From assembly GCA_036389795.1 (NCBI GenBank), contig DASVWD010000101.1, forward strand, positions 1-34,443: a DNA stretch of 34,443 nucleotides. Direction: 5' to 3'. Positions 5,417 through 33,760 of this stretch are shown here, piece by piece. Numbering within the stretch: the stretch's first letter is position 1; the number at the start of each line of letters is the position of its first letter. A program made the translations under genes and the position numbers. The notes beneath the pieces were generated by a model. That model was not told the origin of the DNA, made no database searches, and worked only from the letters and a program-made list of their open reading frames with translations. The DNA is from Longimicrobium sp. Lineage in GTDB: Bacteria; Gemmatimonadota; Gemmatimonadetes; Longimicrobiales; Longimicrobiaceae.

Positions 5417-6495
5417 CGGACCACCACCGTGCCCTTCATGAAGGGGTGCGGAGTGCAGTGGAAGGGGTAGGTCCCCGGGCGCGTGAAGGTGTAGCGCCAC
5501 GTCCCTCCGCTCTGGACGAGCCCCGAGTCGAACGAGTTGTCGTCGGCCGTCACCGTGTGCGCCAGCGGGTCGTTGTTGGTCCACTCCACCGTGGTGCCGG
5601 CCTCGATCTCGATGCGCGCCGGCACGAAGGCCAGGTTGCGCATCCCCGCCTTCTCCACCTTCCCCGTGGGCGCCACCCCGCCCTCCTGCGGCGCGGCCGG
5701 CGGCGGGGGCGGGGCCGCGGGCGCGGCCGCCGCGCCGCGGCCGAACCAGCGCTGCAGCGTGAGCGGGATGGTGAACTCGAAGCCGTAGCGCACCACGTCG
5801 TCGCCCTTCGAGACGCCCTGGAGGGTGTAGACCGTGGTGTTGGTGGCCTGGATCGAGAGCGTGTGCGGCGTGTGCGGGATCGCCAGGTGCAGCCCCGCGC
5901 TCCACGCCATCTGCTCGCCCTCGTGCCGGTCGGTGAGCTGGGCCACGTCGCCGGCCAGCGCGAAGTAGCGCGAGATGCGCACCGTGGCGCCCCCGGCGAG
6001 CGCGAAGCGCGTCTGCCCGGCCGAGTCGGCGTCGGCCAGCACGCGGCCGGCGGCCACCACCCGCACCGGCCCCTCGCGCCGCGCCAGGCTCACCTCGCCG
6101 TCCACCCCGTCCGAGGCCAGGTTGTAGGCCACCATCCCGCCCAGGTCCAGCGGCGCGCCGCGGTCCTGCTGGAAGAGCGCGTGGCGCAGGAAGAACTCCC
6201 ACTCGTTGGGGAAGCCCGGCGCCAGCGTGGAGTTGGTGGAGTAGTGGAACCCCACCAGCGTCCGCATCGGCAGCCCCGCGGCCACGGTGAAGGTGGGGAA
6301 GTTGGTCACCTTCCGCTGCGGCGCGTCGCTGGCGATGAAGCGGTGGATGAAGTGGAAGTACAGCTGTCCGCTGCTCCCCACCCACCCCCCGTTCAGGTTG
6401 GGCGAGCGGTCGAGCAGCGACTGGGCGCGCGCGGGTGCTGCGAGCGCCCCGGCCGCGAGGGCTGCGGCGCACACGGCGCGGACGAATCTCGGCAC
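5413..6495 (-). CDS. Outer-membrane-barrel-like protein fused to a C-terminal cupredoxin domain
   Basis: This 360-residue protein begins with a classic signal peptide (cleavage near ARA-Q, about residue 25). Residues about 30-250 alternate like beta-strands and resemble DUF5777-type barrels (FHFIHRFIASDAPQRK, EWEFFLRHALF). An Ala/Pro linker follows at about 255-280, then a cupredoxin domain with ligands His313, Cys347, His350 and Met353 (FHCTPHPFM). I chose the GTG at 6495 because GGAG lies 7 nt upstream and the signal peptide then starts cleanly; the alternative ATG at 6522 touches the foot of a large hairpin and has no ribosome site. The gene is coupled by ATGA to the lipoprotein cupredoxin downstream. 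If the first part is a true barrel, the copper domain would sit at the periplasmic or outer face. The barrel call is inference from strand pattern. Confidence 0.82.
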   Translation of the reverse strand: MPRFVRAVCAAALAAGALAAPARAQSLLDRSPNLNGGWVGSSGQLYFHFIHRFIASDAPQRKVTNFPTFTVAAGLPMRTLVGFHYSTNSTLAPGFPNEWEFFLRHALFQQDRGAPLDLGGMVAYNLASDGVDGEVSLARREGPVRVVAAGRVLADADSAGQTRFALAGGATVRISRYFALAGDVAQLTDRHEGEQMAWSAGLHLAIPHTPHTLSIQATNTTVYTLQGVSKGDDVVRYGFEFTIPLTLQRWFGRGAAAAPAAPPPPPAAPQEGGVAPTGKVEKAGMRNLAFVPARIEIEAGTTVEWTNNDPLAHTVTADDNSFDSGLVQSGGTWRYTFTRPGTYPFHCTPHPFMKGTVVVR

Positions 6496-6524
6496 GGTCT
6501 GGCTCCAGGCTGGGGTAAACATCA

Positions 6525-6600
6525 GTGCCCAGTGCCTAGTGCCCAGTGCCCAGGAAGAAACCGTGCAGTTCCTGGGCACTGGGCACTGGGGACTGGGCAC
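6525..6600. repeat. 30-bp inverted repeat of ACTGGGC/GCCCAGT units
   Basis: The arms 6525-6554 and 6571-6600 pair at 28 of 30 positions around a 16-nt loop and are made of 7-bp ACTGGGC units in opposite orientations. The same heptamer occurs in tandem at 28818-28838. It lies between two cupredoxin genes and would form a very stable RNA hairpin that could terminate, attenuate or protect the transcript; it may equally be a dispersed repeat. Confidence 0.8.
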
Positions 6601-6606
6601 TTTACG

Positions 6607-7032
6607 TCACTGAACGGTAATGGTGCCCTTCATCCCCATCGCCATGTGGGGCATGCAGAAGAACTCGTAGCGGCCAGCCTTCACGCCCGCGAAGGAGACC
6701 ACGTAGGCCCCGTTGGGCTCGGTCACCAGCGCGCCCCAGAGCGGCTGCAGCTGGTTCGGCATCGCCGCCGCCAGCACCCGCTCCACGTCGTCGGGCACCT
6801 TGGCGGGGTCGAACGACACGTTGTGCGGGCCGCCCGACACGTTCACGAAGCGGATGCGGTCGCCCGCGTGGATGGTCAGGTTCGCCGGCTCGAAGCGGGC
6901 CGTCTGCCCCTCCATGATCATCTTCACCTCGTGCGTGGCGGGGGGCGTGGCCGCCTCCAGCCCGCTGCGGGCGCCCATCGCGGCCAGGGCGAGCGCGCCC
7001 GCGGCCAGACCCATCGCGATCTTCCTGCTCAT
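6607..7032 (-). CDS. Pseudoazurin-like cupredoxin, periplasmic
   Basis: This 141-residue protein has a cleavable signal peptide (residues 1 to about 27, ending near GLEAA). It then carries one cupredoxin domain with copper ligands His70 (GPHNV), Cys126, His129 and Met134. The ligand loop CMPHMAMGMKG closely follows the pseudoazurin pattern, in which the axial Met is the second of the closely spaced methionines. The gap between His70 and Cys126 is long (55 residues) and holds a helical insert. GAGAGG precedes the ATG. It lies 42 bp downstream of the Ig-like/cupredoxin gene and is followed by the 6525-6600 hairpin, so it probably belongs to the same transcript. Role: soluble periplasmic electron carrier (family knowledge); partner unknown. 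Confidence 0.9.
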   Translation of the reverse strand: MSRKIAMGLAAGALALAAMGARSGLEAATPPATHEVKMIMEGQTARFEPANLTIHAGDRIRFVNVSGGPHNVSFDPAKVPDDVERVLAAAMPNQLQPLWGALVTEPNGAYVVSFAGVKAGRYEFFCMPHMAMGMKGTITVQ

Positions 7033-7074
7033 CGTACTGCCTCTCGTTTCAGGGGTGGTTTGCGAGGCCGCGCG

Positions 7075-8616
7075 CTACTGCACGACCACCTGGCCAGTCA
7101 TCCCGCTGTGCCGGGTGCACTGGTAGTTGTAGGTCCCCGCGGTGGGGAACGTCCGGCTCACCGAGGTCCCCGAGCGCGTGTCGGGGATGCTGCCGCCCGT
7201 GGGCGCCGCGCCCGAGAAGGTCACGTTGTGCGTGGCGCCCGAGATCTGCCACGTCACGGTCCCGCCCGCCGCGATCGTCACCGTCTGCGGGCTGAAGCTC
7301 TCGCCCGGCGTGGTGACGGTGGCCGTGCTGTTCCCCGGCGGCGGCGGGGGCGGGGGCGGCGCCGTGGTGGTGGTGACGGTGATGGTCGCCGTGGCCGTCT
7401 TCGTGGTCCCGCCCGAGGCCAGCGTGGCGGTGATGGTCGCCGTCCCCGCCGCCACGCCGGTCACCAGCCCCGACGCGCTGACGGTGGCGACCGCCGAGCT
7501 CGACGACGACCACTGCGCGCTTCCCAGCCCGCTCATGGCCGCGCCGTACTGGTCGCGCGGCGTGGCGGCCAGCTGCAGCGTGGCGCCCACCTGCACCGAG
7601 CCGCTGGACGGGCTCACCGTGAGCGAGGTGTAGGTGGGGGGCTGCTGGGGAGTGTCGCCGCCCGCCTTCACCTCGACGGTACCCTGGATCTCGTGGCGCG
7701 TGCAGTGGTAGGCGTACGTCCCCGGCTGGCTGAACTTGCGGCTGACCGAGGTGCCCTCCTCGGTGCGGCCGGCGCTCCCCCCGTCGGGCGCGATGGTGTA
7801 GAAGGTCACCGTGTGGTCGTCGTCCACCATCGTCCAGGTGACCGTCCCGCCCACCGCGATGGTGACCGCCGGCGGCGAGTACCCGCTGCGCCGGGCCGCG
7901 ACCGCGGCGGTGCTGGGCGCGGGCGGGGCGGGAGGCGCGACCACCGTGACGCTCGCCGCCGCCTGCCGGGTGACGCCGCCCGCCGTGAGCGACGCCGTGA
8001 TCGTCACCGCGCCCGCCGCCACGCCGCGCACCACGCCCGACGCGTCCACCGTCGCGCGCGAGGCGTCGCTGGTGCTGAAGGTCGGCGCGGGGAGCCCCGC
8101 CATCGCGGCGCCGTTCTGGTCGCGCGGGGTGGCGGTGAGCTGGAGCGTTCCTCCCACGTTCACCGAGCCCGCGTCGGGCGAGAGCGTGAGCGAGGTGAAG
8201 GTGGCCGAGGGCGGCGGCGGCGGCGGCGCCGTGACCGTGAGGTCCGCCGTGGCGGTGTGGGTCGCCCCTCCCGCGGTCAGCGTGGCGCGGATGGTGACGG
8301 CGCCCGCCGCCAGCCCCGTCACCAGGCCGTTGCCGTCGACCGTGGCCTTCGCCGGGTCCGACGACACGAAGGTGGGCGCCGGGAGGCCGCTGAGCGCGTT
8401 CCCCGCGGCGTCCTTCGGCGTCGCCGTGAGCTGGAAGCTGCCGCCGACGGGAACCGTGCCGCTGGTGGGCGAGAGCGCGAGCGACGCCAGGGTGCCGCCG
8501 CCGTTCGCCGGGGGGGTGGTCTCCGTGGGGGTGCCGCCGGAGGCCGCGCCGCCTCCGCCGCACGCCGCCGCGATCGTCGCCGCGAGCGCGACCGCCAGGT
8601 ACTGCCGGTACCGCAT
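7075..8616 (-). CDS. Lipoprotein with three BIG2 Ig-like domains and two cupredoxin domains
   Basis: This 513-residue protein reads as a mosaic: lipoprotein signal (Cys19); Ig-like BIG2 domain (about 42-129); Pro-rich linker; BIG2 (139-226); cupredoxin (238-317); BIG2 (328-414); poly-Pro linker; cupredoxin (431-513). The second cupredoxin has His463, Cys500, His503 and Met506. The first has His268, Cys305 and His308, but where Met should be it reads EIQG (Ile310/Gln311), so its copper site would lack the axial Met. The two copper domains share an unusual long loop (PDGGS/PTGGS to GTSVSR) and probably arose by internal duplication. The ATG at 8616 is preceded by AGGAGG and gives a clean lipobox; the longer upstream frame overlaps the inverted repeat and is rejected. 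BIG2 repeats usually act as stalks or adhesive modules, so a surface-displayed copper protein is likely (inference). Confidence 0.9.
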   Translation of the reverse strand: MRYRQYLAVALAATIAAACGGGGAASGGTPTETTPPANGGGTLASLALSPTSGTVPVGGSFQLTATPKDAAGNALSGLPAPTFVSSDPAKATVDGNGLVTGLAAGAVTIRATLTAGGATHTATADLTVTAPPPPPPSATFTSLTLSPDAGSVNVGGTLQLTATPRDQNGAAMAGLPAPTFSTSDASRATVDASGVVRGVAAGAVTITASLTAGGVTRQAAASVTVVAPPAPPAPSTAAVAARRSGYSPPAVTIAVGGTVTWTMVDDDHTVTFYTIAPDGGSAGRTEEGTSVSRKFSQPGTYAYHCTRHEIQGTVEVKAGGDTPQQPPTYTSLTVSPSSGSVQVGATLQLAATPRDQYGAAMSGLGSAQWSSSSSAVATVSASGLVTGVAAGTATITATLASGGTTKTATATITVTTTTAPPPPPPPPGNSTATVTTPGESFSPQTVTIAAGGTVTWQISGATHNVTFSGAAPTGGSIPDTRSGTSVSRTFPTAGTYNYQCTRHSGMTGQVVVQ

Positions 8617-8847
8617 CCTGCCTCCTGCGTGGTGCGTGAGCCCGGCCGGAGCCAGGCGGATGGTGATGCTGGACATGACGCCCTCTCGAACCGGAGAGAT
8701 GATCACCCGTGGGACGAGACCTTCGCTCGCTGGCGAACGAGGGAGATCGGCCGCCGGGAGATGACGGAGCGAATCCGTTTCGGTGGATTTCCGCCGGGGA
8801 TCGCCCGCACGTGCCGTTCGGGGCTCCCCGGTGGGATCAAGCCTGGT

Positions 8848-8923
8848 GGGCCAGCGAGCCTCAGTCGCCGGAGAGTCGTGCAAGCCTTTCCTTCCCACCC
8901 CGGGTCGGGCGGCTCGCTGGCCC
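8848..8923. other. 13-bp perfect inverted repeat in the leader of the Ig-like/cupredoxin gene
   Basis: The arms 8848-8860 and 8911-8923 are exact reverse complements enclosing 50 bases. The 729-bp gap 8617-9345 holds no gene that I can support, only this structure, a possible minus-strand promoter (8981-9009) and a dispersed repeat module (9185-9224). The structure would lie in the untranslated leader of the minus-strand gene that starts at 8616. No known riboswitch consensus was recognised. Confidence 0.5.
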
Positions 8924-8980
8924 GGTCTGTCGCTTTCACCGCCACTGGAAGGCAGGACCGATACCGCGTGCAGGTGCGGA

Positions 8981-9009
8981 TGTTTAAACAAGTTGAAACC
9001 CCTTGCCAA
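8981..9009 (-). promoter_or_regulatory. Possible promoter of the cupredoxin cluster
   Basis: On the minus strand TTGGCA (9004-9009) stands 17 bp from TAAACA (8981-8986). The -10 region overlaps a 10-bp palindrome, TGTTTAAACA (8981-8990), which could be a regulator site. The leader before the ATG at 8616 would be about 360 bases. The -10 match is moderate. Confidence 0.4.
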
Positions 9010-9184
9010 TCAGATGTTTGCGGTGCGTCGGCGCCCATTTCGACGCGTCGCGGGACCCCCTCCCCGGTGTCTCACGGCGCTACATCCTGTCCCGCCTCCC
9101 GACACGGTGACTCACCGCGATACACTGCCGCGCTGTCGAATCCGGAGCCTCGCCGCACCGTGCCTGCCCCCGCACCACCGCCAG

Positions 9185-9224
9185 GCGAGGCTTCCTGCCG
9201 TCGTTGCCGCGGCTTCAGCCGCCC
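9185..9224. repeat. Dispersed hairpin module, copy A
   Basis: This copy runs GCGAGGCTTCCTGCCG, three extra bases, then TTGCCGCGGCTTCAGCCGCC, almost identical to copy C at 27986-28022. The second half forms a 5-bp GCGGC/GCCGC stem with a TTCA loop (9209-9222). A diverged third copy lies at 15047-15095. Confidence 0.65.
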
Positions 9225-9345
9225 CTGTCCCCCCTGCCCTCCGTCACCCTTGTCCCGCCCCGCCCCCGTCGCTAAAACATCCGTCCGCGCCCCGTCCGGC
9301 GCCCCGTCCCCGACCCCTAAGCTTCCCGCGCGTGAGCCTCGCCGC

Positions 9346-12300
9346 ATGAGCACACCCGAGGGCGCCGTCCCGCCCGCCCCGTCCGAGCCCGCGACGTCCG
9401 ACGAGCAGCGCATCGCAGCGGCGCTCGGCCACTGGCGGAGCAAGCTGCTCGACCTGAGCAAGCGCAACCGCGCGCTCAACTTCCGCGTGACGAAGGTCTC
9501 CACCGTGGCCGTCGTCGACGAGCAGCCGGCCGAGGTCTTCCGCCGCCTCTACCTCCAGGAGAAGCCGATGCGCTTCCGCGCCGCCGCCGAGCAGCCGGCG
9601 GAAGGAGCCGGGGCGGGATCGGGCGACGCGGGGGAAACGGCCGCGCCGGGCGGGGAAGAGGCGCCGCGCACCGCAGGGGGAAGCTCGATGGTGGGCGAGA
9701 TGATGCAGATGAACGCCCGCTCCGCCGGTCCGGCCGGGGCGGAGGCGGGGGGTGCGTCGTCTCCTTCTCCGGCAGGTCCCGAAGCGGCGGCGAGCGACGC
9801 GGCGGCAGCCCCGGCGGAGTCAACCCTCGGCGCCTCGGACGTGACGACGGCGTCCACGACCGAGGCGGCGCCGGTGCTTTCGCCCGCGGAGGGTCAGGCC
9901 GCCTCGACGCCCGCGGCGGCCGGGGAGGACGTGTTCGAGGCCATGGAGGAGGACGCGGAGCCGTCCGCCGCCGCGTTCGCGCCGTACGAGGCGGCCAGGC
10001 TCGACGAGCGGCACCGCGACGACACGCTGCAGACCGGCGCCGCGCCGGAGCAGCTCGACAGGTCGCTCCGCAGGATCGACGAGCAGGCGCGCGAGACCAT
10101 CGAGGAGCAGGGCGTCAACGCGCTCTTCCTGGCGCTGGGGATGCTGCACTACCGCGACGCGAAGGACGCCGGCGAAGTCTACCGCGCGCCGCTCCTCCTC
10201 CTCCCCGTCGTGCTCACGCGCAGGTCCGCCGCGGCCGGCTACACCGTCGCCGCCACCGACGACGACCCGATCGTCAACCCCACGCTGGCCGAGTACCTCC
10301 GGCAGAACTTCGGCGTCGTCCTCCCCGACATCCCCGACCCCAGCACCATCGCCGACGACTACGACCTGCAGCAGTTCTTCGCCGCCGTCACCGCGGCGGT
10401 CGCCAACCAGCCCGGCTGGCGGGTGACCACGGAGATCTACCTGGGGCTGTTCGCCTTCCAGAAGTTCGTGATGTACAAGGACCTGGAGGCCAACGGGGCC
10501 GCCTTCGCCGCGCACCGGCTGGTCCGCCAGCTCGTCACCCGCAAGGGCGAGGCGGTGGTGGGCCTCCCCGACGAGGTGCGCGCGATGGAGCTCGACGCCG
10601 AGTTCCCGCCCGAGCGCACCGCGCAGGTGGTGGACGCCGACTCCAGCCAGCTGCGCGCCATCGCCGCCGTCTCGCGCCGGCACGACCTGGTGCTCGAGGG
10701 GCCGCCGGGGACGGGGAAGTCGCAGACCATCACCAACCTGATCGCCCAGGCGCTCGCCAGCGGGCAGTCCGTCCTCTTCGTGGCCGAGAAGATGGCCGCG
10801 CTGCAGGTGGTGCACGACCGCCTGGTGCGCGCCGGGCTCGGCGACTTCTGCCTGGAGCTGCACTCCACCAAGGCCAACAAGCGCGCGGTGGTGAAGGAGA
10901 TCGCCCGCTCGCTCGACGCCTCGCTGCAGCGTCCCAGGCCGGGCGAGTCGGCCGCCGCGCGGCTCCCCGGCGTGCGCGACGAGCTCACCGCCTACGCCGA
11001 CGCCGTGCACACCCCCTACGGCGCCGCCGGCTTCGCCCCCTACCGCGGCTTCGGCGAGCTGCTGGCGCTGCGCGACGCGCCCCGCCTGAAGCTGGAGAAG
11101 CCGGTCGGCGGCGTCACGCGCGAGCAGTTCGAGGACACGGTCCGCGGTCTGGAGGACCTGGCGAAGGCCGCCGCCGAGACCGGCGACCCCGCGCGCCACC
11201 CCTGGCGCGACTCCACGCGCACCCTGTGGACGGAGGACGAGCTGGAGGACGCCCGCGCGCTCCTCTCCGGCCTGCGCTCCGCCGTCGTCGAGACGATTCG
11301 TCTCGGCGGCGAGATCTCCACCGCGTACGGCCTCCCGCCCGTGCGCACCGCGAGCGACGCGCGCACGGCCGTCCACGTGGCCGGGGTGATGCGCCGCTCC
11401 CCCGGCGCCCCGCTCGCCATCCTCAAGAGCGACGCCTGGAACGCCCCGCCGCGCGAGGCGCTGGAGCTCGTCGAGCACGGCCGCCGCCTGGCCGGGCTGC
11501 GCGCGCGCGTCGGCGAGCGCTTCACCGACGAGGCGCTCGGGCACGACCACGCCGCCGACATCGCCTACATCGTGGGGAAGGAGAGCGGCTTCCTCCGCTT
11601 CCTCAACTTCCTGAGCGGACGGTATCGGTCCACGAAGCAGCGCTGGCTCTCCTACCGCCGCCCCGGCTACCGTGCCTCGCTGGCCGAGCAGGCCGAGGAG
11701 ATGAAGCGCGTGGGCGAGCTGCGCCGCGAGCGCCACTGGCTGGGCGGGCGCGAGGCGGTCGGGCGGCACCTCTTCGGCGCCCTCTGGTTCGGCGAGGCCA
11801 GCGACTGGGAGGCGCTGGACGGCTACGTGCGCTGGGTGGTGGAGTTCCGCGGCCTCTGCGTCGCCCACCGCCTGGCCGACCGCGCCGCCGAGCTGGCCGC
11901 CGCCGCCGCGCCCGACGTGTCGCTCGCCACGTCGCTCGGACAGGCGGTGGAGCGCGTGGACCGCTCGCTCGCCGGGCTGCGCACGCTCGCTGGGTTTCCG
12001 GCGACGTACCTCGCAGGAGCGCCGCTGGCGGAGGTCGAGGTCCGCGCGCGCGAGCTGGAGGAAGGGCTCTCGCAGGCCCCGCGCTGGGCGGCGTTCGAGC
12101 TGGTGCGGCAGAAGGCGGCCGCCGGGCTGGCGGCCGAGCTGCTGGCCCCCGCCTTCTCCGGCGAGGTGGCGTTCGCCGACCTGCCGCGCGCCTTCCGCCG
12201 CGCCTTCCACCAGAAGTGGGTGAGCGCCGCCGTGCAGGAGCGCGAGCCCCTGCGCCAGTTCGCGACGATGACGCACGAGCAGCGCGTGGAGGAGTTCCGC

Positions 12301-14571
12301 CGGCTGGACGCGGAGGTGCTGAAGGAGAACCGCGACGCCCTGGTCGCCCGGCTCCGCGACGAGGTGCAGGCCCGGCTGCGCGCCGACGAGGCCAAGGCCG
12401 GCATGCCCTTCCTGCAGCGCGAGATGGCGCGCGAGCGGCGGCACGCCCCGCTCCGCCGGACGCTGCAGACGTCGGGCGCCGCCATCCGCGCCATCAAGCC
12501 GTGCTTCATGATGAGCCCGCTCACCGTGGCGCAGCTCCTGGAGGGCGGCCGGCCGGGCTTCGACGTGGTGATCTTCGACGAGGCCAGCCAGCTTCCCTCC
12601 GAAGACGCGGTGGGCGCCATCGTCCGCGGCGAGCGGCTGGTGGTCGTCGGCGACCCCAAGCAGCTGCCGCCCACCAACTTCTTCGCGGTGATGGCCGGGC
12701 AGGAGGCCGCCCCGCTCGCCGACGACGGCACCCCGCTCTTCGAAGACACCGAGAGCGTGCTGGAGGAGTTCCTGGGCGCGGGCGTGCCGAAGACGCGGCT
12801 GCGCTGGCACTACCGCAGCACGCACGAGTCGCTGATCACCTTCTCCAACGTCTCCTTCTACGACGCCGACCTGCACACCTTCCCCAGTGTGGAGACCGAC
12901 AGCCACGCCGAGGGCCTCGTCTTCGAGTACGTCCCCGACGGCGTGTACGAGGGGAAGGGGCTCAACCTGGTCGAGGCGCGCCGCGTGGTCGACGCCGTCG
13001 TCCGCCACGCGAAGGAGTATCCCGAGTTGAGTCTCGGCGTCGGCACCTTCAACCTGCGCCAGCAGCTGGCCATCCAGGACGAGCTGGAGGCGCGCCGCCG
13101 CGAAGACCCGTCGCTGGAGCCGTTCTTCTCGCGCGAGAAGACGGAGCCGTTCTTCGTTAAGAACCTGGAGAACATCCAGGGCGACGAGCGCGACGTGATT
13201 CTGCTGAGCGTCACCTACGCGAAGGGGCGCGACGGGCGGCTGCGCTACAACTTCGGGCCGATCAACGGCGAGAACGGCTGGCGGCGCCTGAACGTGCTCA
13301 CCACCCGCGCCCGGCGGCGGATGGTGGTCTTCAGCTCCATGAAGGGCGACGAGATCAGCCCCACGCACGCCACCTCGCGCGGCCCCGCCCTCCTGCGCGA
13401 CTTCCTCCTCTACGCCGAGCGCGGCCGCCTGGACGCCGCCGAGGCGAGCGCGGCGGCCGACACCGAGTCCGTCTTCGAGCGCGAGGTCTTCCAGGAGCTG
13501 ACGCGGCGGGGGCTCGCGCTCAGGCCGCAGGTGGGCGTCGCCGGCTACCGCATCGACATGGCGGTGGTGGACGACGAGGTCCCCGGCCGCTACGTCTGCG
13601 GCATCGAGTGCGACGGCGTGGCCTACCACTCGTCCGAGACCGCGCGCGACCGCGACCGCCTGCGCCAGCAGGTGCTGGAGGCGCGCGGGTGGGAGATCCA
13701 CCGCGTCTGGTCCACCGACTGGTTCAAGGACCGCGAGGGCCAGGTCGAGCGCCTCCTCCGCCTGGTGGTAGACTCCCGCCGCCGCGCCCGCGAGGAGACG
13801 GCGGCGGAGAAGGAAGCCGCGGTCCAGGCCGCCGCCCGCGAGCAGGCCGAAGCCGCCGCCTCCGCGCCGGCGGACTCCACCGCGGAGCGGATCGAAGCCG
13901 CCGCGCCCTCGCCCGACGCCGGGGTCCCCGTCTTCACCGCGGCCCCGTCCGTGGAAGCGGAAACACCCTCCGCCGTGCCGCCCGCCGCGTCGCCTCCAGC
14001 GGACGAAGCCGCCGCGCCGCCGCCGGTGCCGCTCGCGGCGCAGCCGTACCGGCGGGCGGACGACAGCGCGCGCCACGCCGGGACGGACATCCTTTCCGCC
14101 CCGCCCGCGCTGCTGCTGAGGGCCATCGAAGACGTGGTCGCCGCCGAGGCCCCGATCCACGTGGAGGAGCTGGTCGCGCGCGTGGGGGCGATGTGGGGGC
14201 TGGCGCGCGTGGGCAACCGCGTGCAGGGACGCATCGAGTACTCGCTGCGGTCGCTGGAGCAGGCGGGCAGGCTCCAGCGCCGCGGCGAGTGGGTCTGGAA
14301 CGCCGAAGGCACCCTGGCCGTGCGCACGCGCGCGGGCACGGGCATACCGGCCGAGCGCATCCCGCCCGAGGAGTACCGCGAGGCGGTGCTGATGGTGCTG
14401 CGCGCCACCGGCCCCGTCCCCCGCAAGGAGCTGACGAACCGCGTCCGCGCGCTTCTGGGCTTCAGCCGCACCGGCGCGCGGCTGGACGAGGCCATCGGCG
14501 CCGCCATCGACGCCCTCCTCGCCGACGGCACCGCCGGCGAGGCCAGCACCGGCATCTGCCTGCGGGAGTGA
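9346..14571 (+). CDS. Large DUF4011 / SF1 helicase / Vsr-like nuclease / DUF3320 protein
   Basis: This is a 1741-residue protein. A DUF4011 region begins at HWRSKLLDLSKRNRALNF (from about 29), is interrupted by an Ala/Pro/Glu-rich stretch (about 82-205), and resumes at EEQGVNALFLALGML. Superfamily 1 helicase motifs follow: Walker A GPPGTGKS (452-459), Walker B DEAS (1078-1081), GDPKQLPP (1102-1109), WHYRS (1154-1158), ENIQGDERD (1275-1283) and TTRARRR (from 1319). Next is a Vsr/MTES_1575-like endonuclease fold (about 1385-1470; Asp1404, Glu1421, Asp1423), an Ala/Pro linker, and a C-terminal DUF3320 with winged-helix-like repeats (about 1585-1741). By family this is an ATP-driven DNA or RNA translocase fused to a nuclease, a build common among suspected anti-phage proteins. 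The ATG at 9346 is chosen because family homology starts just after it; upstream frame extends through repeats. It stands alone in its operon. Confidence 0.93.
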   Translation: MSTPEGAVPPAPSEPATSDEQRIAAALGHWRSKLLDLSKRNRALNFRVTKVSTVAVVDEQPAEVFRRLYLQEKPMRFRAAAEQPAEGAGAGSGDAGETAAPGGEEAPRTAGGSSMVGEMMQMNARSAGPAGAEAGGASSPSPAGPEAAASDAAAAPAESTLGASDVTTASTTEAAPVLSPAEGQAASTPAAAGEDVFEAMEEDAEPSAAAFAPYEAARLDERHRDDTLQTGAAPEQLDRSLRRIDEQARETIEEQGVNALFLALGMLHYRDAKDAGEVYRAPLLLLPVVLTRRSAAAGYTVAATDDDPIVNPTLAEYLRQNFGVVLPDIPDPSTIADDYDLQQFFAAVTAAVANQPGWRVTTEIYLGLFAFQKFVMYKDLEANGAAFAAHRLVRQLVTRKGEAVVGLPDEVRAMELDAEFPPERTAQVVDADSSQLRAIAAVSRRHDLVLEGPPGTGKSQTITNLIAQALASGQSVLFVAEKMAALQVVHDRLVRAGLGDFCLELHSTKANKRAVVKEIARSLDASLQRPRPGESAAARLPGVRDELTAYADAVHTPYGAAGFAPYRGFGELLALRDAPRLKLEKPVGGVTREQFEDTVRGLEDLAKAAAETGDPARHPWRDSTRTLWTEDELEDARALLSGLRSAVVETIRLGGEISTAYGLPPVRTASDARTAVHVAGVMRRSPGAPLAILKSDAWNAPPREALELVEHGRRLAGLRARVGERFTDEALGHDHAADIAYIVGKESGFLRFLNFLSGRYRSTKQRWLSYRRPGYRASLAEQAEEMKRVGELRRERHWLGGREAVGRHLFGALWFGEASDWEALDGYVRWVVEFRGLCVAHRLADRAAELAAAAAPDVSLATSLGQAVERVDRSLAGLRTLAGFPATYLAGAPLAEVEVRARELEEGLSQAPRWAAFELVRQKAAAGLAAELLAPAFSGEVAFADLPRAFRRAFHQKWVSAAVQEREPLRQFATMTHEQRVEEFRRLDAEVLKENRDALVARLRDEVQARLRADEAKAGMPFLQREMARERRHAPLRRTLQTSGAAIRAIKPCFMMSPLTVAQLLEGGRPGFDVVIFDEASQLPSEDAVGAIVRGERLVVVGDPKQLPPTNFFAVMAGQEAAPLADDGTPLFEDTESVLEEFLGAGVPKTRLRWHYRSTHESLITFSNVSFYDADLHTFPSVETDSHAEGLVFEYVPDGVYEGKGLNLVEARRVVDAVVRHAKEYPELSLGVGTFNLRQQLAIQDELEARRREDPSLEPFFSREKTEPFFVKNLENIQGDERDVILLSVTYAKGRDGRLRYNFGPINGENGWRRLNVLTTRARRRMVVFSSMKGDEISPTHATSRGPALLRDFLLYAERGRLDAAEASAAADTESVFEREVFQELTRRGLALRPQVGVAGYRIDMAVVDDEVPGRYVCGIECDGVAYHSSETARDRDRLRQQVLEARGWEIHRVWSTDWFKDREGQVERLLRLVVDSRRRAREETAAEKEAAVQAAAREQAEAAASAPADSTAERIEAAAPSPDAGVPVFTAAPSVEAETPSAVPPAASPPADEAAAPPPVPLAAQPYRRADDSARHAGTDILSAPPALLLRAIEDVVAAEAPIHVEELVARVGAMWGLARVGNRVQGRIEYSLRSLEQAGRLQRRGEWVWNAEGTLAVRTRAGTGIPAERIPPEEYREAVLMVLRATGPVPRKELTNRVRALLGFSRTGARLDEAIGAAIDALLADGTAGEASTGICLRE

Positions 14572-19987: not shown

Positions 19988-20488
19988 TCAGTCGCCCGCC
20001 GCGCCCCCGTGCGCCGGGCGGCGCGAGAGCGAGCTGGGCGCGTCCAGGTTGGCGCCGTCGTCCACCCCCACGCCCATCCGGTCCACCAGTTCGCCGCCCA
20101 GCCACCCGGTCACCATCGACAGCCCGCCGCCGGCCAGCGAGAGCGCGATGGCGAGCGTCTCCGGGTCGGTGGGCGCGTCGCGCCGCAGCAGCCAGCTGAG
20201 CGCGAAGAGCGTCACCACAATGACGTTGCCCGCCCCGTGCAGCGCCCCCACCCGCTTCGCGCGCGTCCCGGCGGGGATCTTGGTCCAGTCCGCGAAGCCG
20301 AAGACCGCCGCCAGCAGCCCGCTCAGCACGCCGAGCGCGATCAGCCAGAAGGAGACCAGGGCCCACTGCCCGCTTCCTTCCGCCACGTGGCAGAGGTCGA
20401 AGAGCACCGCGCCCGTGAGCGTCCCCAGCGGCAGCACGATCAGCATCTGGTGCACCGGGTGCCCGAGCACCTTCACGCGTGCCTCCAT
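19988..20488 (-). CDS. DUF2231 four-helix membrane protein
   Basis: This 166-residue protein begins MEARVKVLGHPVHQMLIVLP, the His-containing opening of DUF2231 proteins, and has four membrane helices (about 15-35, 45-65, 80-100 and 110-130). The second half includes GALHGAGNVIVVTLFALSW and SMVTGWLGGELV, also typical. Histidines in helices 1 and 3 resemble haem ligands in some related membrane proteins, but binding is not established. The ATG at 20488 follows a very strong AAGGAGGGGAGCG site. The frame extends further upstream, into the octamer repeat, so the shorter start is preferred. It is probably co-transcribed with the SDR gene downstream. Confidence 0.88.
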   Translation of the reverse strand: MEARVKVLGHPVHQMLIVLPLGTLTGAVLFDLCHVAEGSGQWALVSFWLIALGVLSGLLAAVFGFADWTKIPAGTRAKRVGALHGAGNVIVVTLFALSWLLRRDAPTDPETLAIALSLAGGGLSMVTGWLGGELVDRMGVGVDDGANLDAPSSLSRRPAHGGAAGD

Positions 20489-20512
20489 CGCTCCCCTCCT
20501 TTCCGCCGTTCC

Positions 20513-20536
20513 GTACTCACGCACTCACGCACTTTC
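20513..20536. repeat. Three tandem octamers (GTACTCAC, GCACTCAC, GCACTTTC)
   Basis: Three 8-bp units fill the 50-bp gap between the DUF2231 start and the stop codon of the PQQ dehydrogenase gene; they end 2 bp before that stop codon at 20539. Confidence 0.8.
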
Positions 20537-20538
20537 CC

Positions 20539-22290
20539 CTACGGCAGCGCGAACACGATCAGCGCGTTCCCGCGCGGGGCGCCGTACATCTCCGGCGCGT
20601 ACCCCTCCACCCAGCCGCCCCAGCCGGTGGGCACCGCCACGTACTGCCTGCCGTTCACGCTGTAGGTGACCGGGTTGCTGTGGATGCCGCTGCCGGTCTG
20701 GAAGGTCCACAGCACGCGCCCGCTGCGCGCGTCGAAGGCGTGGAAGTTCCCGTTGGGCTCCCCGGCGAAGACCAGGTCCCCCGCGGTCGCCAGCACGGAG
20801 GAGAGGATCGGGTGCTCGGCGCGCCACGACCACACCTCCCGCCCCGTCGCGGGGTCGAACGCCTTCACGTGCCCCCACTGCTCCTGGTCGAGCGCCACCT
20901 CGCCGCCCCAGTAGGGCATGCTCTCCTCGAACTCGGTGGGCTTCAGCTTGAAGGTGCCGCACGCCTCCACCACCGGGGTGTAGAGCAGGCCCGTCCGCGG
21001 GCTGTAGGCGGCGTGCGGCCACTCCTTGAGCCCCGCCGGGCCGGGGCAGATGTGCACGCCCTCCGGCGTGGGCGTCCGCTGCACCGCCACCCTCCCCTGG
21101 GCGTCGATGGCGCCCCAGGTGACGCGGCCGTAGGGGACGGCGCGCACGAACTGGCCGTTGGTGCGGTCCAGGACGAAGAGGTGCCCGTTCTTGTCGAAGT
21201 GGGCCAGCAGCTTCCGCCCCTCCTGCTCGAACAGGATGTTCTCGTTGACGCCGTCGTAGTCCCACACGTCGTGCGGCGTCCACTGGTAGTGCCAGCGCAG
21301 CGACCCGTCGTCGGGGTCGATGGCCACCATCCCGCTGGTGTAGAGGTTGTTCCCCGGCCGCACGCTCCCGTCGAAGTCCGGGCCCGGGTTGCCGACTCCC
21401 CAGTAGACGAGGTCCAGCTCGGGGTCGTAGGTGCCCGTGATCCACGCCGTCCCCCCGCCGCGCGCCCAGCTCTGGTCGCCGCCCCAGGTGTCGGCGCCGG
21501 GCTCGCCGGGCTTCGGCACGTTGTAGCGCCGCCAGACCCGCGCGCCGGTGCGCAGGTCGAAGGCGTCGATGTGCCCGCGCACCCCGTACTCGGCCCCCGA
21601 GCTGCCGACGATCACCAGGTTCTTCACCACCAGCGGCGCCAGCGTGGCGCTCTCGCCGGCGCGCACGTCCACGAAGGTCTGCTGCCACACCGGCCGCCCG
21701 TTCGCGGCGTCCAGCGCCACGAGCTGGCCGTTCTGGGTGGCCACGAACACCCTCCCCTGCGCCACCGCCACCCCGCGGTTGACGTTGCCGCAGCAGAGCG
21801 GCACGTCCAGCGGGATCGGGTGGCGGTACTGCCAGAGGAGCCGGCCGCTGGCGGCGTCCAGCGCCCACACGTAGCCGTCCCACCCGGAGACGTACATCAC
21901 CCCGTCCACCACGATCGGGGCGGCCTCGAACGAGTAGGTGGCGGGGTTGGCGACCAGGCCGATCACCCCGGTCTGGAAGACCCAGGCGGGCCTGAGCCGC
22001 GCCACGTTGCCGGTGTTGATCTGGTCCAGCGGGCTGTACCGCTGCCCGTCGTAGGCGCCGTAGTAGGTGAGCCAGTTCTGCGGCTCGGAGCGGGCCCGCG
22101 CGATGCGCTCGGAGGTGACCCCCTGCGCCACCGGCGGGGCCGAGCCCGCCTTGGCCTCGTTCATGTCCGAGAACGGCCGGGCCTGCTGGGTGATCGGGTA
22201 GCGGGTGCGCACTCCGCACGCCGGGAGGAGGAGCACCGCGAGGGCGACGGCGGACGCCAGGCGCAGATTGGTCGCAGCATGCGTGGTCAT
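20539..22290 (-). CDS. PQQ-dependent alcohol dehydrogenase lipoprotein with lanthanide-type Asp signature
   Basis: This 583-residue protein has a lipoprotein signal (Cys25) and an eight-bladed PQQ propeller. Diagnostic features are the vicinal disulfide LCCGN (Cys166-Cys167), NPGPDFDG, and the catalytic segment PHDVWDYDGVNEN with Asp344 and, two residues on, Asp346. In the methanol dehydrogenase family an Ala at that second position marks calcium enzymes, while Asp marks lanthanide enzymes such as XoxF and ExaF/PedH, so lanthanide use is predicted. It oxidises alcohols in the periplasm and hands electrons to a c-type cytochrome or copper protein. GGGAGGGAG precedes the ATG. The blue-copper lipoprotein gene ends 13 bp upstream, making an operon. 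No PQQ synthesis or cytochrome gene lies in the window. Confidence 0.93.
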   Translation of the reverse strand: MTTHAATNLRLASAVALAVLLLPACGVRTRYPITQQARPFSDMNEAKAGSAPPVAQGVTSERIARARSEPQNWLTYYGAYDGQRYSPLDQINTGNVARLRPAWVFQTGVIGLVANPATYSFEAAPIVVDGVMYVSGWDGYVWALDAASGRLLWQYRHPIPLDVPLCCGNVNRGVAVAQGRVFVATQNGQLVALDAANGRPVWQQTFVDVRAGESATLAPLVVKNLVIVGSSGAEYGVRGHIDAFDLRTGARVWRRYNVPKPGEPGADTWGGDQSWARGGGTAWITGTYDPELDLVYWGVGNPGPDFDGSVRPGNNLYTSGMVAIDPDDGSLRWHYQWTPHDVWDYDGVNENILFEQEGRKLLAHFDKNGHLFVLDRTNGQFVRAVPYGRVTWGAIDAQGRVAVQRTPTPEGVHICPGPAGLKEWPHAAYSPRTGLLYTPVVEACGTFKLKPTEFEESMPYWGGEVALDQEQWGHVKAFDPATGREVWSWRAEHPILSSVLATAGDLVFAGEPNGNFHAFDARSGRVLWTFQTGSGIHSNPVTYSVNGRQYVAVPTGWGGWVEGYAPEMYGAPRGNALIVFALP

Positions 22291-22303
22291 GGCTCTCCCT
22301 CCC

Positions 22304-22864
22304 TCAGGGCCGGCGCTGGCGCGGACGGTCGAGCTTCGCCTCGGGCGGCACCTCGCCGCCCACCATGATCAGCCCCAGCATCCCGCGCCCGGCGTGGTTG
22401 GAGATCGGGCAGCCGAACCAGTACAGGCCCGGCTGGTCGAGCCGGATCCGTACCCGCCCCGCGGTGTGCATGGGGAGCATCATCGCCTGCCGCTCGGGGA
22501 CGCTGGGGGCGAAGATGGCGTGGAGGTTCTGGTCGGTGTTGTGGACCTCCAGCTCCAGCTCGCCGCCCTGCGGGATGCGGATGATGGCCGGGCGCCAGAT
22601 GAACTGGTTCTTGGGGATGGTGATCTCGTCGCGGTACACCCCGTCGCGCCCCCGCTTCGCGTGCGAGAGGCCGCCGTGGGCGAACAGCCGGGCCACCACG
22701 CGCCCGTTGGGGTCGTCCACCGCGGGGAGCTCGTTGACCAGGCGCACCACGTCGGGGTTGAGCTGCTTGAGCACGCTGGGCCTCAGCAGCTTCACGTACT
22801 CGCACGACGAGAGGAAGGTGAACAGGGCGAGCGGCACGAAGAGCCGGAACCAGTGGGCTTTCAT
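22304..22864 (-). CDS. PQQ-associated blue copper lipoprotein (MSMEG_3727-like)
   Basis: This 186-residue protein has a lipobox (FLSSC, Cys21) followed by a conserved N-terminal block (EYVKLLRPSVLKQLNPDVV) that resembles the PQQ-associated MSMEG_3727 family. Its cupredoxin domain carries His115 (NLHAIF), Cys152, His157 and Met162 (FGCPISNHAGRGM), a complete type 1 copper set with a slightly widened loop. It is the first gene of a two-gene operon with the PQQ dehydrogenase, 13 bp apart, so it is the obvious candidate for the electron acceptor of that enzyme (inference). The start at 22864 is chosen for the signal peptide; the longer frame would place a basic, non-secretory stretch in front. 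The AT-rich control region 22937-22970 lies upstream. Confidence 0.87.
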   Translation of the reverse strand: MKAHWFRLFVPLALFTFLSSCEYVKLLRPSVLKQLNPDVVRLVNELPAVDDPNGRVVARLFAHGGLSHAKRGRDGVYRDEITIPKNQFIWRPAIIRIPQGGELELEVHNTDQNLHAIFAPSVPERQAMMLPMHTAGRVRIRLDQPGLYWFGCPISNHAGRGMLGLIMVGGEVPPEAKLDRPRQRRP

Positions 22865-22970: not shown

Positions 22971-23115
22971 CGGAGAGCCGGCGCTGACTCGGGTGGTCCC
23001 GGGACGCCCGCGGGCCCCGGAAAGGTCCAACGATTGCACAGCTTTCCGTGTCGACGGACATCGTGTTGGAGCGTCGCCGGATCCGGGAGCGGACGATGAT
23101 CGGGCTGGGCGCCTC

Positions 23116-23724
23116 ATGAACGGCTCGCGCAGGGAGATCCTCGTGCTGCTCTGCGCGGCGAACCGGCGCGTGGGCGAGCTCGCCGACGCGCTGGGGATCA
23201 GCGAGAGCGCGGTCCGCGTGCACCTGCACGCGCTGGAGGTAGATGGCCTGGTGCAGCACGAGACGTTGCGCGGGGGCGTGGGAAAGCCCGCGCACGAGTA
23301 CCGCCTGACGCCCGCGGGGGAAGCGCTCCTCTCGCGGGCGTACCTGCCGTTCCTGCTGCGCGTGCTGGAAGGGGTGCGTTCGCGGCTGGACCCGGAGGAG
23401 ACCGAGCGGCTGCTCCGCGCGGCGGGGAGCGGGCTGGCGCCGCCGGACCGGCCGCGGGGGAGCGCGCGCGCCCGCGCCGAGGAGGCCGTGCGGCTGCTGG
23501 GCGACCTCGGCGGAGCCGGCTACGTGGAGGAAGGAGGGGCCGAGCTGGTGATCCGGGGGCGGTGCTGCCCGCTGGCCGCGATCGTCCCCGAGCACCCGCT
23601 GGCGTGCACGGCGCTTGAGGCGACGCTGACGGAGTTCACCGGCCTTCCCGTGCGCGCCGACTGCGACGTGCGGGGACGTCCGAGCTGCCGCTTCAGGATC
23701 CGCTCGCAACCGACCACCGGCTGA
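23116..23724 (+). CDS. COG2345/SufR-like winged-helix regulator with a C-terminal Cys cluster
   Basis: This 202-residue protein has an N-terminal winged helix (about 5-65: RVGELADALGISESAVRVHL). The C-terminal part has cysteines at 150, 151, 164, 183 and 191 in the pattern RCCPLAA, HPLAC, ADCDVRGRPSCRF, like the Fe-S-binding tail of COG2345/SufR-type regulators. Such proteins sense iron-sulfur status, redox or nitric oxide (family knowledge, not shown here). It is divergent from the PQQ/copper operon across an AT-rich spacer and is the natural candidate for its regulator (inference). The ATG at 23116 is chosen because homology begins at once; the ribosome site is weak and the frame is open further upstream. 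Confidence 0.87.
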   Translation: MNGSRREILVLLCAANRRVGELADALGISESAVRVHLHALEVDGLVQHETLRGGVGKPAHEYRLTPAGEALLSRAYLPFLLRVLEGVRSRLDPEETERLLRAAGSGLAPPDRPRGSARARAEEAVRLLGDLGGAGYVEEGGAELVIRGRCCPLAAIVPEHPLACTALEATLTEFTGLPVRADCDVRGRPSCRFRIRSQPTTG

Positions 23725-29920: not shown

Positions 29921-32900
29921 GTGGACCCTCGCGAGCCCGTCCCCTGGCAGATCTGGATCGACACCGGCGGCACGTTCACCGACTGCCTGGCGCGCGACCC
30001 GCGGGGGCGCCTGCACCGCGCCAAGGTCCTCTCCACGGGGGCGCTGCGCGGCGTGGTGGAGCGCGCCCTGGCCCCCGACGCGCTCCGGATCCGCGAGGAC
30101 TGGAACGCCGTCCCCGGCGCGGTGGACGGCTTCGCCGTGCGGCTGCTGGGCGTGCAGCACCCGGCGGCGCGGGTCAGCAGCTACGATCCGAAGGGGAAGG
30201 TGGCCTACCTGGACCGCCCGCTCCCCGAGCGGCCGCCGGCGGGGACCACCGTCGAGCTCGTCTCCCCCGACGAGGCGCCGATCCTGGCCGCCCGCCTGGT
30301 CACCCGCACCCCGGCCGGCGGGCTGCTGCCGCCGATCGCCATGCGGCTGGCCACCACGCGCGGGACCAACGCGCTGCTGGAGCGGCGGGGCTCGCCCGTG
30401 GCGCTCTTCATCACCCGCGGCTTCGGCGACCTGCTGCGGATCGGCACCCAGCAGCGGCCCGACCTCTTCGCCCTGGCCGTGCGCCCCCGCGAGCCGCTCC
30501 ACGCCGCCGCCGTCGAGGTCGCGGAGCGGCTGGCGGCGGACGGCTCCGTGCTCGTCCCGCTCGACGCCGAGGCGGTCGCCGCCTCCGCCGCCGATCTCCT
30601 GGAGCGCGGCGTCCGCTCCGCCGCGGTGGCGCTGATGCACGCCTGGAAGAACCCCGCGCACGAGCGGGCGGTGGGCGAGGCGCTCTGCCGCGCCGGGTTC
30701 GAGCACGTCTCCCTCTCCTCCGACCTGGCGCCGTTCCTCAAGCTCCTCCCCCGCGCCGAGACGGCCGTCGTCGACGCGTACCTGGCCTCCGTCGTCGGCG
30801 GCTACCTGCGGGCGGTGGGGGGCGCGCTGAAGGGCGGGCGGCTGCACGTGATGACCAGCGCCGGCGGGCTGGCGCGCCCGGCCGACTTCCGCGCCAAGGA
30901 CTCCCTCCTCTCCGGCCCGGCGGGGGGCGTGGCCGGCGCGGCGCACGCGGGGCGGCGCTCGGGGTTCGCCCGGGTGATCGCCTTCGACATGGGCGGCACC
31001 AGCACCGACGTCTCGCGCTGCGACGGCGACTTCGAGTACGTGTGGGAGCACGAGGTGGGCGGCGGCCACGTCTTCGCCCCCGCGCTGGCGATCGAGACGG
31101 TGGCCGCCGGCGGAGGTTCGATCTGCGCCTTCGACGCGGAGGGCCTGAGGGTCGGCCCGGAGAGCGCGGGCGCCTGGCCCGGGCCGGCGTGCTACGGGGC
31201 GGGCGGGCCGCTCACGCTCACCGACTGCAACCTGCTCTTGGGGCGGCTCTCCCGCGCCCGCTTCGCCATCCCCGTGGACCCCGCCCCCGCCGCCGCGGCC
31301 GCCGACCTGCTCCTGCGCGAGGTGCAGGCCGGAACGGGCGAGGAGACCACGCGCGAGGCGCTCCTGGCGGGCCTCATCGACCTGGCCGACGAGCGCATGG
31401 CCGACGCCATCCGCGCCGTGTCGCTCCGCCGCGGCTACGACCCGGCCGAGTACGCGCTGGTGGCGTTCGGCGGGGCGGGCGCCCAGCACGCCTGCGGCGT
31501 AGCCGCCCGGCTGGGGATCGCCACCGTGCTGGTCCCCGCAGACGCCGGGCTCCTCTCCGCGCAGGGGCTGGGGAGCGCGCCGCTGGAGCGCTTCGCCGAG
31601 CGGCAGGTGCTGCGCCCCCTGGACGAGGTGGAGGCCGACGTCCCCCGCCTCTTCTCGGAGCTGGCGGAGGAGGCCGCGGCGGCGGTGGAGGCGGAGGGCG
31701 TGCCGCGGCGGGAGATCGAGACGCGCCGGCGGATCGCCTCGCTGCGCTACGCGGGGCAGGAGTCGTCGCTCACCGTCGAGTGGCGCGCGGGGCTGGACCT
31801 CCGGCGCGCCTTCGAGGAGCGCTACGCCGCCACCTACGGCCACCGCCCCGAGGCGCGCCCGGTGGAGCTGGAGTCGCTGCGCGCCGTCGCCTCCACGTAC
31901 GTCGAGGAGGCCGCGCCCGCGGCGGCGCCGGAGCGCTCCGACGCGCAGCCGCACGGCTCCAGCCGGGTGTGGCTCGGCGGCGGGTGGCGCCGCGTCCCCT
32001 GCTACGAGCGCGAGAAGCTGGCGCCCGGCGCCGCGCTCGCCGGCCCCGCCGTGGTGATGGAGCGCCACAGCGCCACCCTGGTCGCCGCAGGGTGGGACGC
32101 CGCGGTGGACGGCGCGGGCGCGCTGGTGCTGCGGCGCGCCGCGGCGTCCCCGGCCGGCGAGGCGGAGGCCGCCGAAGCGGCCGGGTCCCGTCCCCGCGAG
32201 GAGGCGCCGTCGGCCACGCCCGAGACGGTGCGGCTGGAGCTGTTCGTCCACCGCTTCCGCGCGCTGGTGGGGGAGATGGGCGAGCAGCTCCGGCGCACGG
32301 CGCTGTCGACCAACGTCAAGGAGCGGCTCGACTTCTCCTGCGCGCTGCTGGACGCGGACGGCGAGCTGGTGGTGAACGCGCCGCACATCCCCGTGCACCT
32401 GGGCGCGCTGGGCCTCTGCGTCCGCTCCGTGGCCGCCGCGCTGCCGCTGGAGCCGGGCGACGTGGTGGTGACCAACCACCCCGCGTTCGGCGGCTCGCAC
32501 CTCCCCGACGTCACCGTCGTCACCCCCGTGCACGGCGACGGCGGGCTCGTGGGATACGTCGCCAGCCGCGCGCACCACGCGGAGATCGGGGGGACGCGCC
32601 CCGGCTCCATGCCGCCCAGCGCGCGCACGCTGGCCGAGGAGGGCGTCGTCATCCCCCCGACGTACCTGGTGCGCCGCGGCGAGGCGCGCTGGGACGAGCT
32701 GCGCCGCATCCTCACCACGGCGCCCCACCCCACCCGCGCGCTCGCCGAGAACCTGGCCGACCTGGCCGCCGCCGTGGCCGCCAACCACCGCGGCGCCGAG
32801 CTGCTGTCGGCGCTGGTGCGCGAGCACGGCGCGGAGGCCGTGGCGGGGTACATGGAGACGCTGAAGCGGCGCGCGGAGGAGCGGGTGCGCGAGGCGCTGG

Positions 32901-33760
32901 CCGAGGTGGGCGACGGCGTCTACGAGGCCGAGGAGAAGCTGGACGACGGCTCCGCGCTCTGCGCCCGCGTGGAGATCCGGGAGGGCCGCGCCGTGGTCGA
33001 CTTCGCCGGGTCGGCGCCGGTGCACCCGGGGAACCTGAACGCCACGCCGGCGGTGGTGCGCAGCGTGGTGCTCTACGTGCTGCGCCTGCTGGTGCGCGAG
33101 CCGCTCCCCCTCAACGAGGGGCTGCTGCGCGCGGTGGAGGTGCGCGTCCCCCGCGGGCTGCTGAGCCCGGACTGGCCGGACGACCCGGCGCGGGCCCCGG
33201 CCGTGGTGGGCGGCAACACCGAGGTGAGCCAGCGGCTGGTGGACACGCTGCTGAAGGCGCTGGGCCTGGCCGCCTGCAGCCAGGGGACGATGAACAACGT
33301 GCTCTGGGGAACGGAGCGCTTCGGCTACTACGAGACGGTGTGCGGCGGGTGCGGCGCGGGCCCGGGGTGGGAGGGCGCGTCGGCCGTGCACTCGCACATG
33401 ACCAACACGCGCATCACCGACCCCGAGGTGGTGGAGCATCGCTACCCGGTGCGCGTGGAGCGCTTCGCCGTGCGCGCCGGCTCGGGCGGGGCGGGCCGGT
33501 GGCCGGGCGGCGACGGCGCCGTGCGCGAGACGGTGTTCCTGGCGCCGATGTCGCTCTCCGTCCTCTGCCAGCACCGCGCGGAGGGGCCCTACGGGATGGA
33601 AGGCGGCCTCCCCGGCGCCCCCGGCCGCCAGCGCGTGGTGCGCGCCACCGGCGAGACTGTCGAGCTCTCCTCCGTCGACGGCTGCGAGGTCGGCCCCGGC
33701 GACCGCCTGGTGCTGGAGACGCCGGGGGGCGGCGGATGGGGGCCTGCCAGGGAGACGTGA
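29921..33760 (+). CDS. 5-oxoprolinase (fused hydantoinase A/B type)
   Basis: This 1279-residue protein is close in length to eukaryotic and bacterial full-length ATP-dependent 5-oxoprolinases. The N-terminal half is HyuA-like: phosphate-binding motif [11 protein letters not shown] (from about residue 13) and [15 protein letters not shown], both actin-like ATPase motifs, then [12 protein letters not shown]. The C-terminal half, from about residue 768, is HyuB-like: [36 protein letters not shown] and [16 protein letters not shown]. It opens 5-oxo-L-proline to glutamate with ATP, in the cytoplasm. In many bacteria the two parts are separate genes; here they are one chain joined by an Ala/Glu-rich linker (about 740-765). 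The GTG at 29921 has no clear ribosome site, but homology begins almost at once. Confidence 0.93.

Follow-up and report, generated by a model that had tools for sequence, protein, structure and literature searches.

A conserved PQQ dehydrogenase and copper lipoprotein gene pair as a putative membrane-held alcohol-oxidising unit in Longimicrobium sp.

Introduction

To which acceptor does a PQQ dehydrogenase bearing the mark of lanthanide use pass its electrons when the gene beside it encodes a blue copper lipoprotein? The question is raised by a 34,443-nucleotide stretch of Longimicrobium sp. DNA (hereafter the window), which is an entire contig of a 7.5 Mb draft genome. Published excerpts state that quinoproteins donate electrons to c-type cytochromes, quinones or azurin (PMC12124388) and that azurin is the acceptor of the type II alcohol dehydrogenase (PMC8348568). 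In further excerpts, the cytochrome PedF is the acceptor of both PedE and PedH, exaF is flanked by PedF- and PedG-like genes (PMC12997753), and the XoxF3 systems of Gemmatimonadetes are accompanied by XoxG (PMC10875860). The original prediction for this locus, made from the DNA letters, coupled a lanthanide-dependent dehydrogenase to a copper acceptor held at the membrane, a wiring that it called less explored on the grounds that most known relatives use cytochrome c; the latter point agrees with these excerpts as well as with the loci described below.

Results

Both genes lie on the minus strand, as do all the codons listed below, the copper gene first and the dehydrogenase gene second, with 13 bases between them and a purine-rich stretch 5' of the dehydrogenase start codon. 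The dehydrogenase gene spans 20539-22290 (ATG 22288-22290, stop 20539-20541; 583 amino acids) and the copper-protein gene 22304-22864 (ATG 22862-22864, stop 22304-22306; 186 amino acids). Reading the codons back for both genes showed the residue numbering of the original prediction to be exact. Each product begins with a signal peptide and a lipobox, LPAC with Cys25 (codon 22216-22218) in the dehydrogenase and LSSC with Cys21 (22802-22804) in the copper protein, and by these motifs both are lipoproteins, as had been proposed.

A divergent ArsR/SufR-like regulator with a Cys-rich C-terminal part (22993-23724, plus strand) adjoins the copper gene and was not found at most other loci. Across 23 loci, we rejected this regulator and the other neighbours (a DUF2231 gene at 19988-20524, a NAD-binding protein, a PAP2 protein and an ABC exporter) as parts of the system because they rarely recur: DUF2231 was seen once (L024) and the regulator once (L031, where the match falls in a long overlapping frame), in a comparison in which many loci are short and an absent neighbour may lie beyond the stretch. 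A copper transporter was not found among the window's flanking genes searched with Pfam. Elsewhere the window holds, on the plus strand, a 3041-residue open frame (5446-14571) with DUF4011, AAA_11/AAA_12 helicase, MTES_1575 nuclease and DUF3320 domains, and a single 1279-residue frame (29921-33760) in which hydantoinase/oxoprolinase A and B domains stand together.

The dehydrogenase is a member of the methanol/ethanol family of PQQ dehydrogenases, judging from TIGR03075 (607.4 bits against a cut-off of 480.05), PF01011 and its place in the tree; among PDB sequences, PedH (6zcv) is the closest match. In an alignment with relatives, pieces of eight PDB chains among them, the window enzyme retains the vicinal pair Cys166-Cys167 (21790-21795, codons read back), the predicted metal ligands Glu234 (21589-21591) and Asn301 (21388-21390), both invariant, and the catalytic Asp344 (21259-21261). 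Two residues past the latter, within the Asp344-Tyr345-Asp346 stretch encoded at 21253-21261, stands Asp346 (21253-21255), the mark of lanthanide use on which the original prediction had been built. The structural model of the enzyme has a mean pLDDT of 69.1, falling below 50 in the active-site loop 341-348. We also considered an Acido-empty quinoprotein (TIGR04528) and rejected it, the score of 434 bits being below the cut-off of 650 and the PQQ and metal residues being present.

The residue two positions past the equivalent of Trp283 is Trp (Phe in one) in all 16 XoxF/MxaF rows, and Thr285 in the window enzyme. We take a Trp at this position to narrow the substrate pocket for methanol, and our guess is that the window enzyme is not specialised for that substrate.

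Its partner exceeds the cut-offs of both TIGR04339 (141.7 versus 75 bits) and Pfam PF23509 (160.7 versus 27 bits), which identifies it as a member of the 'MSMEG_3727 family PQQ-associated protein', a named family whose NCBIfam model is of the type 'hypoth_equivalog' with function not given; this family name goes beyond the original prediction. The full type 1 copper site that had been described is present, comprising His115 (22520-22522) and the loop Cys152-x4-His157-x4-Met162 (22379-22411), all read back from the codons. In an alignment of 20 short and 2 long homologues, the His, Cys, His, Met set is complete in 19 of 22. The exceptions are L020, from the second pair of the same genome (Cys to Asp, His to Asn), L038 (Met to Glu) and L041 from Streptomyces (Cys to Ser, His to Asp, Met to Leu).

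A model of the copper protein, built from 13 sequences, has a mean pLDDT of 71.4, with a high-scoring core and low values at residues 19-59 and at the end. Its best Foldseek match is auracyanin (6kol; E 2.3e-8, probability 1.00), and VIA matches roughly residues 60-175 to copper proteins with Z scores of 11 to 14. The VIA list is headed by the copper-carrier domains of CopA and CupA (Z 13.7 and 13.3). Its alignments are, for example, to a copper-transport domain (4f2f; Z 13.7; 98 residues, 2.3 A), nitrosocyanin (Z 12.5; 90 residues, 1.8 A) and auracyanin A (Z 11.1; 92 residues, 2.1 A). The modelled fold is that of a cupredoxin, and such structural matches speak to fold and not to function. The pseudoazurin model TIGR02375 was rejected, the protein reaching 22.4 of the 109.85 bits at its cut-off.

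A dehydrogenase homologue lies directly 3' of the short-type copper gene, on the same strand, at 19 of 19 loci ranging over Gemmatimonadota, Pseudomonadota and one Streptomyces plasmid. Duplicate copies of any one locus had been removed before this count; two loci with broken dehydrogenase frames (L036 and L037) were counted for adjacency and excluded from the residue comparisons and trees. Dehydrogenase homology starts anywhere from 23 bases ahead of the copper-gene stop to 72 bases past it, the spacing being taken to the start of homology rather than to the start codon and, in L031, from the nearer copper gene. The converse search agrees: among 61 related genomes, all ten dehydrogenase matches with identities from 65% upwards (scores of 868 bits and above) stand at places with a copper gene, three of them (G803, G804 and G807) assigned by contig number and position, and the next matches drop to 585 bits and below. 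The pairing is not a matter of chance.

At L031:564-1872, two tandem cupredoxin genes, both with full copper ligands, stand 5' of one dehydrogenase. Longer proteins (L025, L053 and L107; open frames of about 450-560 residues) with a C-terminal cupredoxin and a conserved C-x2-CSWGWA motif in the N-terminal part stand beside a dehydrogenase of a neighbouring clade. In the haloarchaeon Natrinema, the 313-residue protein upstream of the dehydrogenase has no Pfam match, and we make no claim of copper for it. The family is rare and scattered: its model exceeds the cut-off in 7 of 395 genomes of the host's own phylum, in 1 of 398 genomes of the phylum of G404 (G404 itself) and in one of 72,556 plasmid records, that of Streptomyces.

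The original prediction had looked to phylogeny to place the enzyme relative to XoxF, ExaF and PedH. A first tree, with 44 dehydrogenases, grouped all 17 short-type pair enzymes in a single clade (99/100). A second tree of 53, from which six long-branched or odd rows had been dropped and to which 15 new rows had been added, resolved clades of XoxF/MxaF (16 rows, 100/100), PedH/ExaA (5, 100/100), type II (2), di-heme-paired (8, 100/99), long-type (3, 100/100) and short-type enzymes (17, 100/100). All copper-paired enzymes form one clade, within which short types unite with long types at a support of 100/98; its sister is the di-heme group (100/98). The window enzyme is outside the XoxF/MxaF clade in both trees (100/100 in the second) and outside the PedH/ExaA clade (100/100, in a tree with no ExaF sequence), so that we rejected identity with either; relative to XoxF and PedH, the phylogeny places the enzyme in the separate, copper-paired clade.

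Asp occupies the position of Asp346 in 14 of the 17 short-type pair enzymes (L034 has Glu; L035 and L052, both from one genome, have Ser), in 3/3 long-type and 8/8 di-heme-paired enzymes, in 14 of 16 XoxF/MxaF rows (two MxaF have Ala) and in four of the five PedH/ExaA rows (ExaA has Ser), and is absent from the type II rows. Lanthanide use by the window enzyme is, on this alignment, most likely, and the Glu and Ser residues suggest that metal use may vary within the clade.

At all 8 readable loci of the sister clade, out of nine examined (L115 is cut off by a contig end), the slot directly upstream of the dehydrogenase holds no copper gene but encodes a di-heme cytochrome c, a protein with a pair of CxxCH motifs. 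The exchange of heme for copper in one operon slot is clear. It is read most economically if proteins of both kinds accept electrons from the enzyme, and it offers the strongest argument here for the predicted role of the copper protein as electron acceptor. The midpoint root of the tree leaves it undecided whether heme or copper came first. The sister clade is from Gemmatimonadota (L109-L114, L116, L095 and L115); its vicinal Cys pair is Gly-Phe in five of the eight readable loci and Arg-Ser in L115.

Two pairs have lost copper ligands. The second pair of the host genome, new relative to the original prediction (C212:12625-14825; L005 and L020), has a partner that lacks two copper ligands and a dehydrogenase that keeps its residues. 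The Streptomyces plasmid pair (L041; NZ_CP109439.1, about 71.4-73.8 kb) has lost three copper ligands and kept the dehydrogenase metal ligands, and no signal peptide is visible on either of its proteins. Copper is thus dispensable in L020 and L041, and L038 has Glu for Met, which counts against an acceptor role. The motif that follows Asp346 is GVNEN in 14 of 14 copper-intact short-type rows and GVNEV or GINEV in copper-intact long-type rows; the enzymes with altered partners have AISEP (L020), AVNEP (L038) and SIAEC (L041). Since L020 and L038 are sisters in the tree, these cases amount to at most two independent events. A copper-less partner, perhaps intracellular, would need a role other than electron transfer, and such cases are the main evidence that the partner may have a structural task too.

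The host genome encodes two further dehydrogenases. The third (C239; L021), in a cassette that the original prediction had not covered, is XoxF-like and is followed by a substrate-binding protein and then a c-type cytochrome; we take the substrate-binding protein to be XoxJ, presumably, from the gene order. The fourth (C118; L022) has a fused cytochrome domain, lacks the Cys pair and is below the family cut-off. The c-type cytochrome model PF13442 matches at ten places in the genome, none of them on the window's contig (C101) or on C212. These cytochromes, the XoxG-type one included, could serve as acceptors.

PqqC was not found in this genome or in the five other genomes of its family that were searched; in the same search it exceeded the cut-off in 4 of 17 genomes, none of them of the host's family as far as is known. 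A PqqE search returned matches below the cut-off only. The host seems to make no PQQ, and since PqqC was not found, PQQ is probably imported and the activity would depend on an outside supply. Excerpts of PMC12124388 describe the PQQ importer PqqU as widespread in Gemmatimonadetes, which fits a host without PqqC. The best match in the genome to E. coli PqqU, a candidate importer (C7:49123-51042; L118), is 34% identical; of the sites compared, Y99 corresponds to Phe and K274 to Glu, R365 and R536 are both Arg, and R304 could not be aligned. A Glu at the Lys274 position may, as the same excerpts suggest, allow metal co-transport (PMC12124388). A family member together with PQQ biosynthesis in one genome, as reported for M. 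smegmatis (PMC3023750), was thus not seen in the host; same-genome PQQ biosynthesis is outside the MSMEG_3727 model's own definition.

Discussion

The pair and its conservation, the cofactor and metal residues, the copper ligands, the lipoprotein motifs, the clade and the slot exchange are read from sequence, and the cupredoxin fold from a model. From these we infer lanthanide use, the substrate, the electron transfer and the next acceptor. The best overall explanation, to which we give a probability of roughly two in three, is that the two genes encode a membrane-held unit in which a PQQ dehydrogenase, most likely lanthanide-dependent, delivers electrons to the copper protein. The two-gene operon would thus produce an alcohol-oxidising unit at the membrane. 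Its lipid-anchored beta-propeller dehydrogenase would bind PQQ and most likely a lanthanide and oxidise an alcohol, probably not as a methanol specialist, leaving the cofactor as PQQH2. Electrons would then leave singly through the exposed PQQ edge near the vicinal disulfide for the lipid-anchored type 1 copper protein, which would pass them on to the respiratory chain. Copper would here stand in for the di-heme cytochrome c that sister-clade operons carry in this slot. Sequence and comparative genomics support the coupling that had been predicted, through adjacency at all 19 loci, the single clade and the di-heme slot.

The cupredoxin-like protein might instead be a structural or assembly subunit, concerned with docking, stability or cofactor loading, with the electrons going to a cytochrome c encoded elsewhere and the copper site being secondary. 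The Streptomyces and C212 pairs lend this some weight, having kept adjacency and the dehydrogenase metal ligands after the copper ligands had gone, in Streptomyces along with visible signal peptides, and the host does have other c-type cytochromes. We nevertheless regard it as unlikely, because a full H, C-x4-H-x4-M set in 19 of 22 proteins over several phyla needs a reason, because a di-heme cytochrome c holds the slot in the sister clade, and because the three enzymes with altered partners differ after Asp346, as if the loss of copper had accompanied a change in the enzyme. That the neighbour is a periplasmic copper carrier or chaperone that merely adjoins the dehydrogenase is far less credible still: the CopA and CupA domains at the head of the VIA list point that way, but a ranking of this kind reflects fold alone, the ligands are those of a type 1 site for electron transfer, the dehydrogenase gene always lies alongside, and the tested genes flanking the pair in the window include no copper transporter.

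As to the metal, the enzyme could use calcium. The clade tolerates other states at the marker position, with Ser in L035 and L052 (one genome) as in ExaA and Glu in L034, and the predictive value of the lanthanide mark has been tested only in other clades. Against this, the window enzyme has Asp, like 14/17 short-type, 3/3 long-type and 8/8 di-heme-type enzymes and all XoxF and PedH rows; MxaF, ExaA and type II lack it, and calcium use is in our judgement improbable.

The enzyme family and the type of copper protein are known; what is new is the conserved, lipid-anchored wiring, undescribed as far as the literature was searched. The original prediction of a less explored wiring is supported, with a qualification: no description of a cupredoxin partner for a lanthanide-type enzyme was found in the excerpts searched, but azurin is on record as a quinoprotein acceptor, and copper in this role is not new as such. 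All or part of the clade may already have been published (Huang et al. 2019, ISME J, on REE alcohol dehydrogenases). With XoxF, which works with the XoxG cytochrome and XoxJ, the window enzyme shares the fold family, the PQQ and metal ligands and the extra Asp, yet it falls outside the XoxF/MxaF clade, lacks the Trp/Phe near Trp283 and is paired with a copper protein. PedH also has the extra Asp; the PedH/ExaA enzymes form a separate clade and, in the excerpts consulted, pass electrons to a cytochrome c550 (PedF/ExaB). The type II quinohemoprotein alcohol dehydrogenase is closer in one respect, since there too a blue copper protein takes quinoprotein electrons (PMC8348568, in excerpt). Type II, however, has a fused heme domain between PQQ and copper, whereas the window enzyme bears the lanthanide mark and has no heme domain; the copper protein beside it, a lipoprotein from the same operon, scores below the pseudoazurin cut-off.

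The window partner conforms to the MSMEG_3727 family in being over the cut-off and beside a PQQ dehydrogenase, the neighbour in M. smegmatis being MSMEG_3726. In the excerpts consulted, MSMEG_3726 and MSMEG_3727 are named solely in connection with a PQQ cassette (PMC3023750; PMC6529628). The Streptomyces member scores 282 bits, near the model's core, and lacks the three copper ligands and the signal peptide, whereas both a lipobox and the full copper site are present in the window member; the two dehydrogenases are 64% identical.

An evolutionary account can be offered tentatively, at somewhat less than even odds. A lanthanide-type lineage would have given up the di-heme cytochrome c encoded in its operon and taken on a blue copper protein with a lipid anchor, producing a heme-free lanthanide-to-copper wire at the membrane. 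Copper would later have been lost at least twice, in the host's second pair and in the Streptomyces pair, where export was lost as well, so that what had been a redox partner became a non-redox subunit as the active-site loop of the enzyme changed.

In the literature excerpts examined, c-type cytochromes are the acceptors of the lanthanide alcohol dehydrogenases. If the reading is true, a clade that has its own copper acceptor tethered to the membrane would tie the economies of two scarce metals, lanthanide and copper, together in one operon. Its natural heme-paired, copper-paired and copper-less relatives allow the acceptor's contribution to be tested by swapping or mutating a single gene in laboratory strains used for expression. 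The pair also suggests a function for the MSMEG_3727 family, named and functionally uncharacterised, and a marker for genes possibly mislabelled XoxF in soil data.
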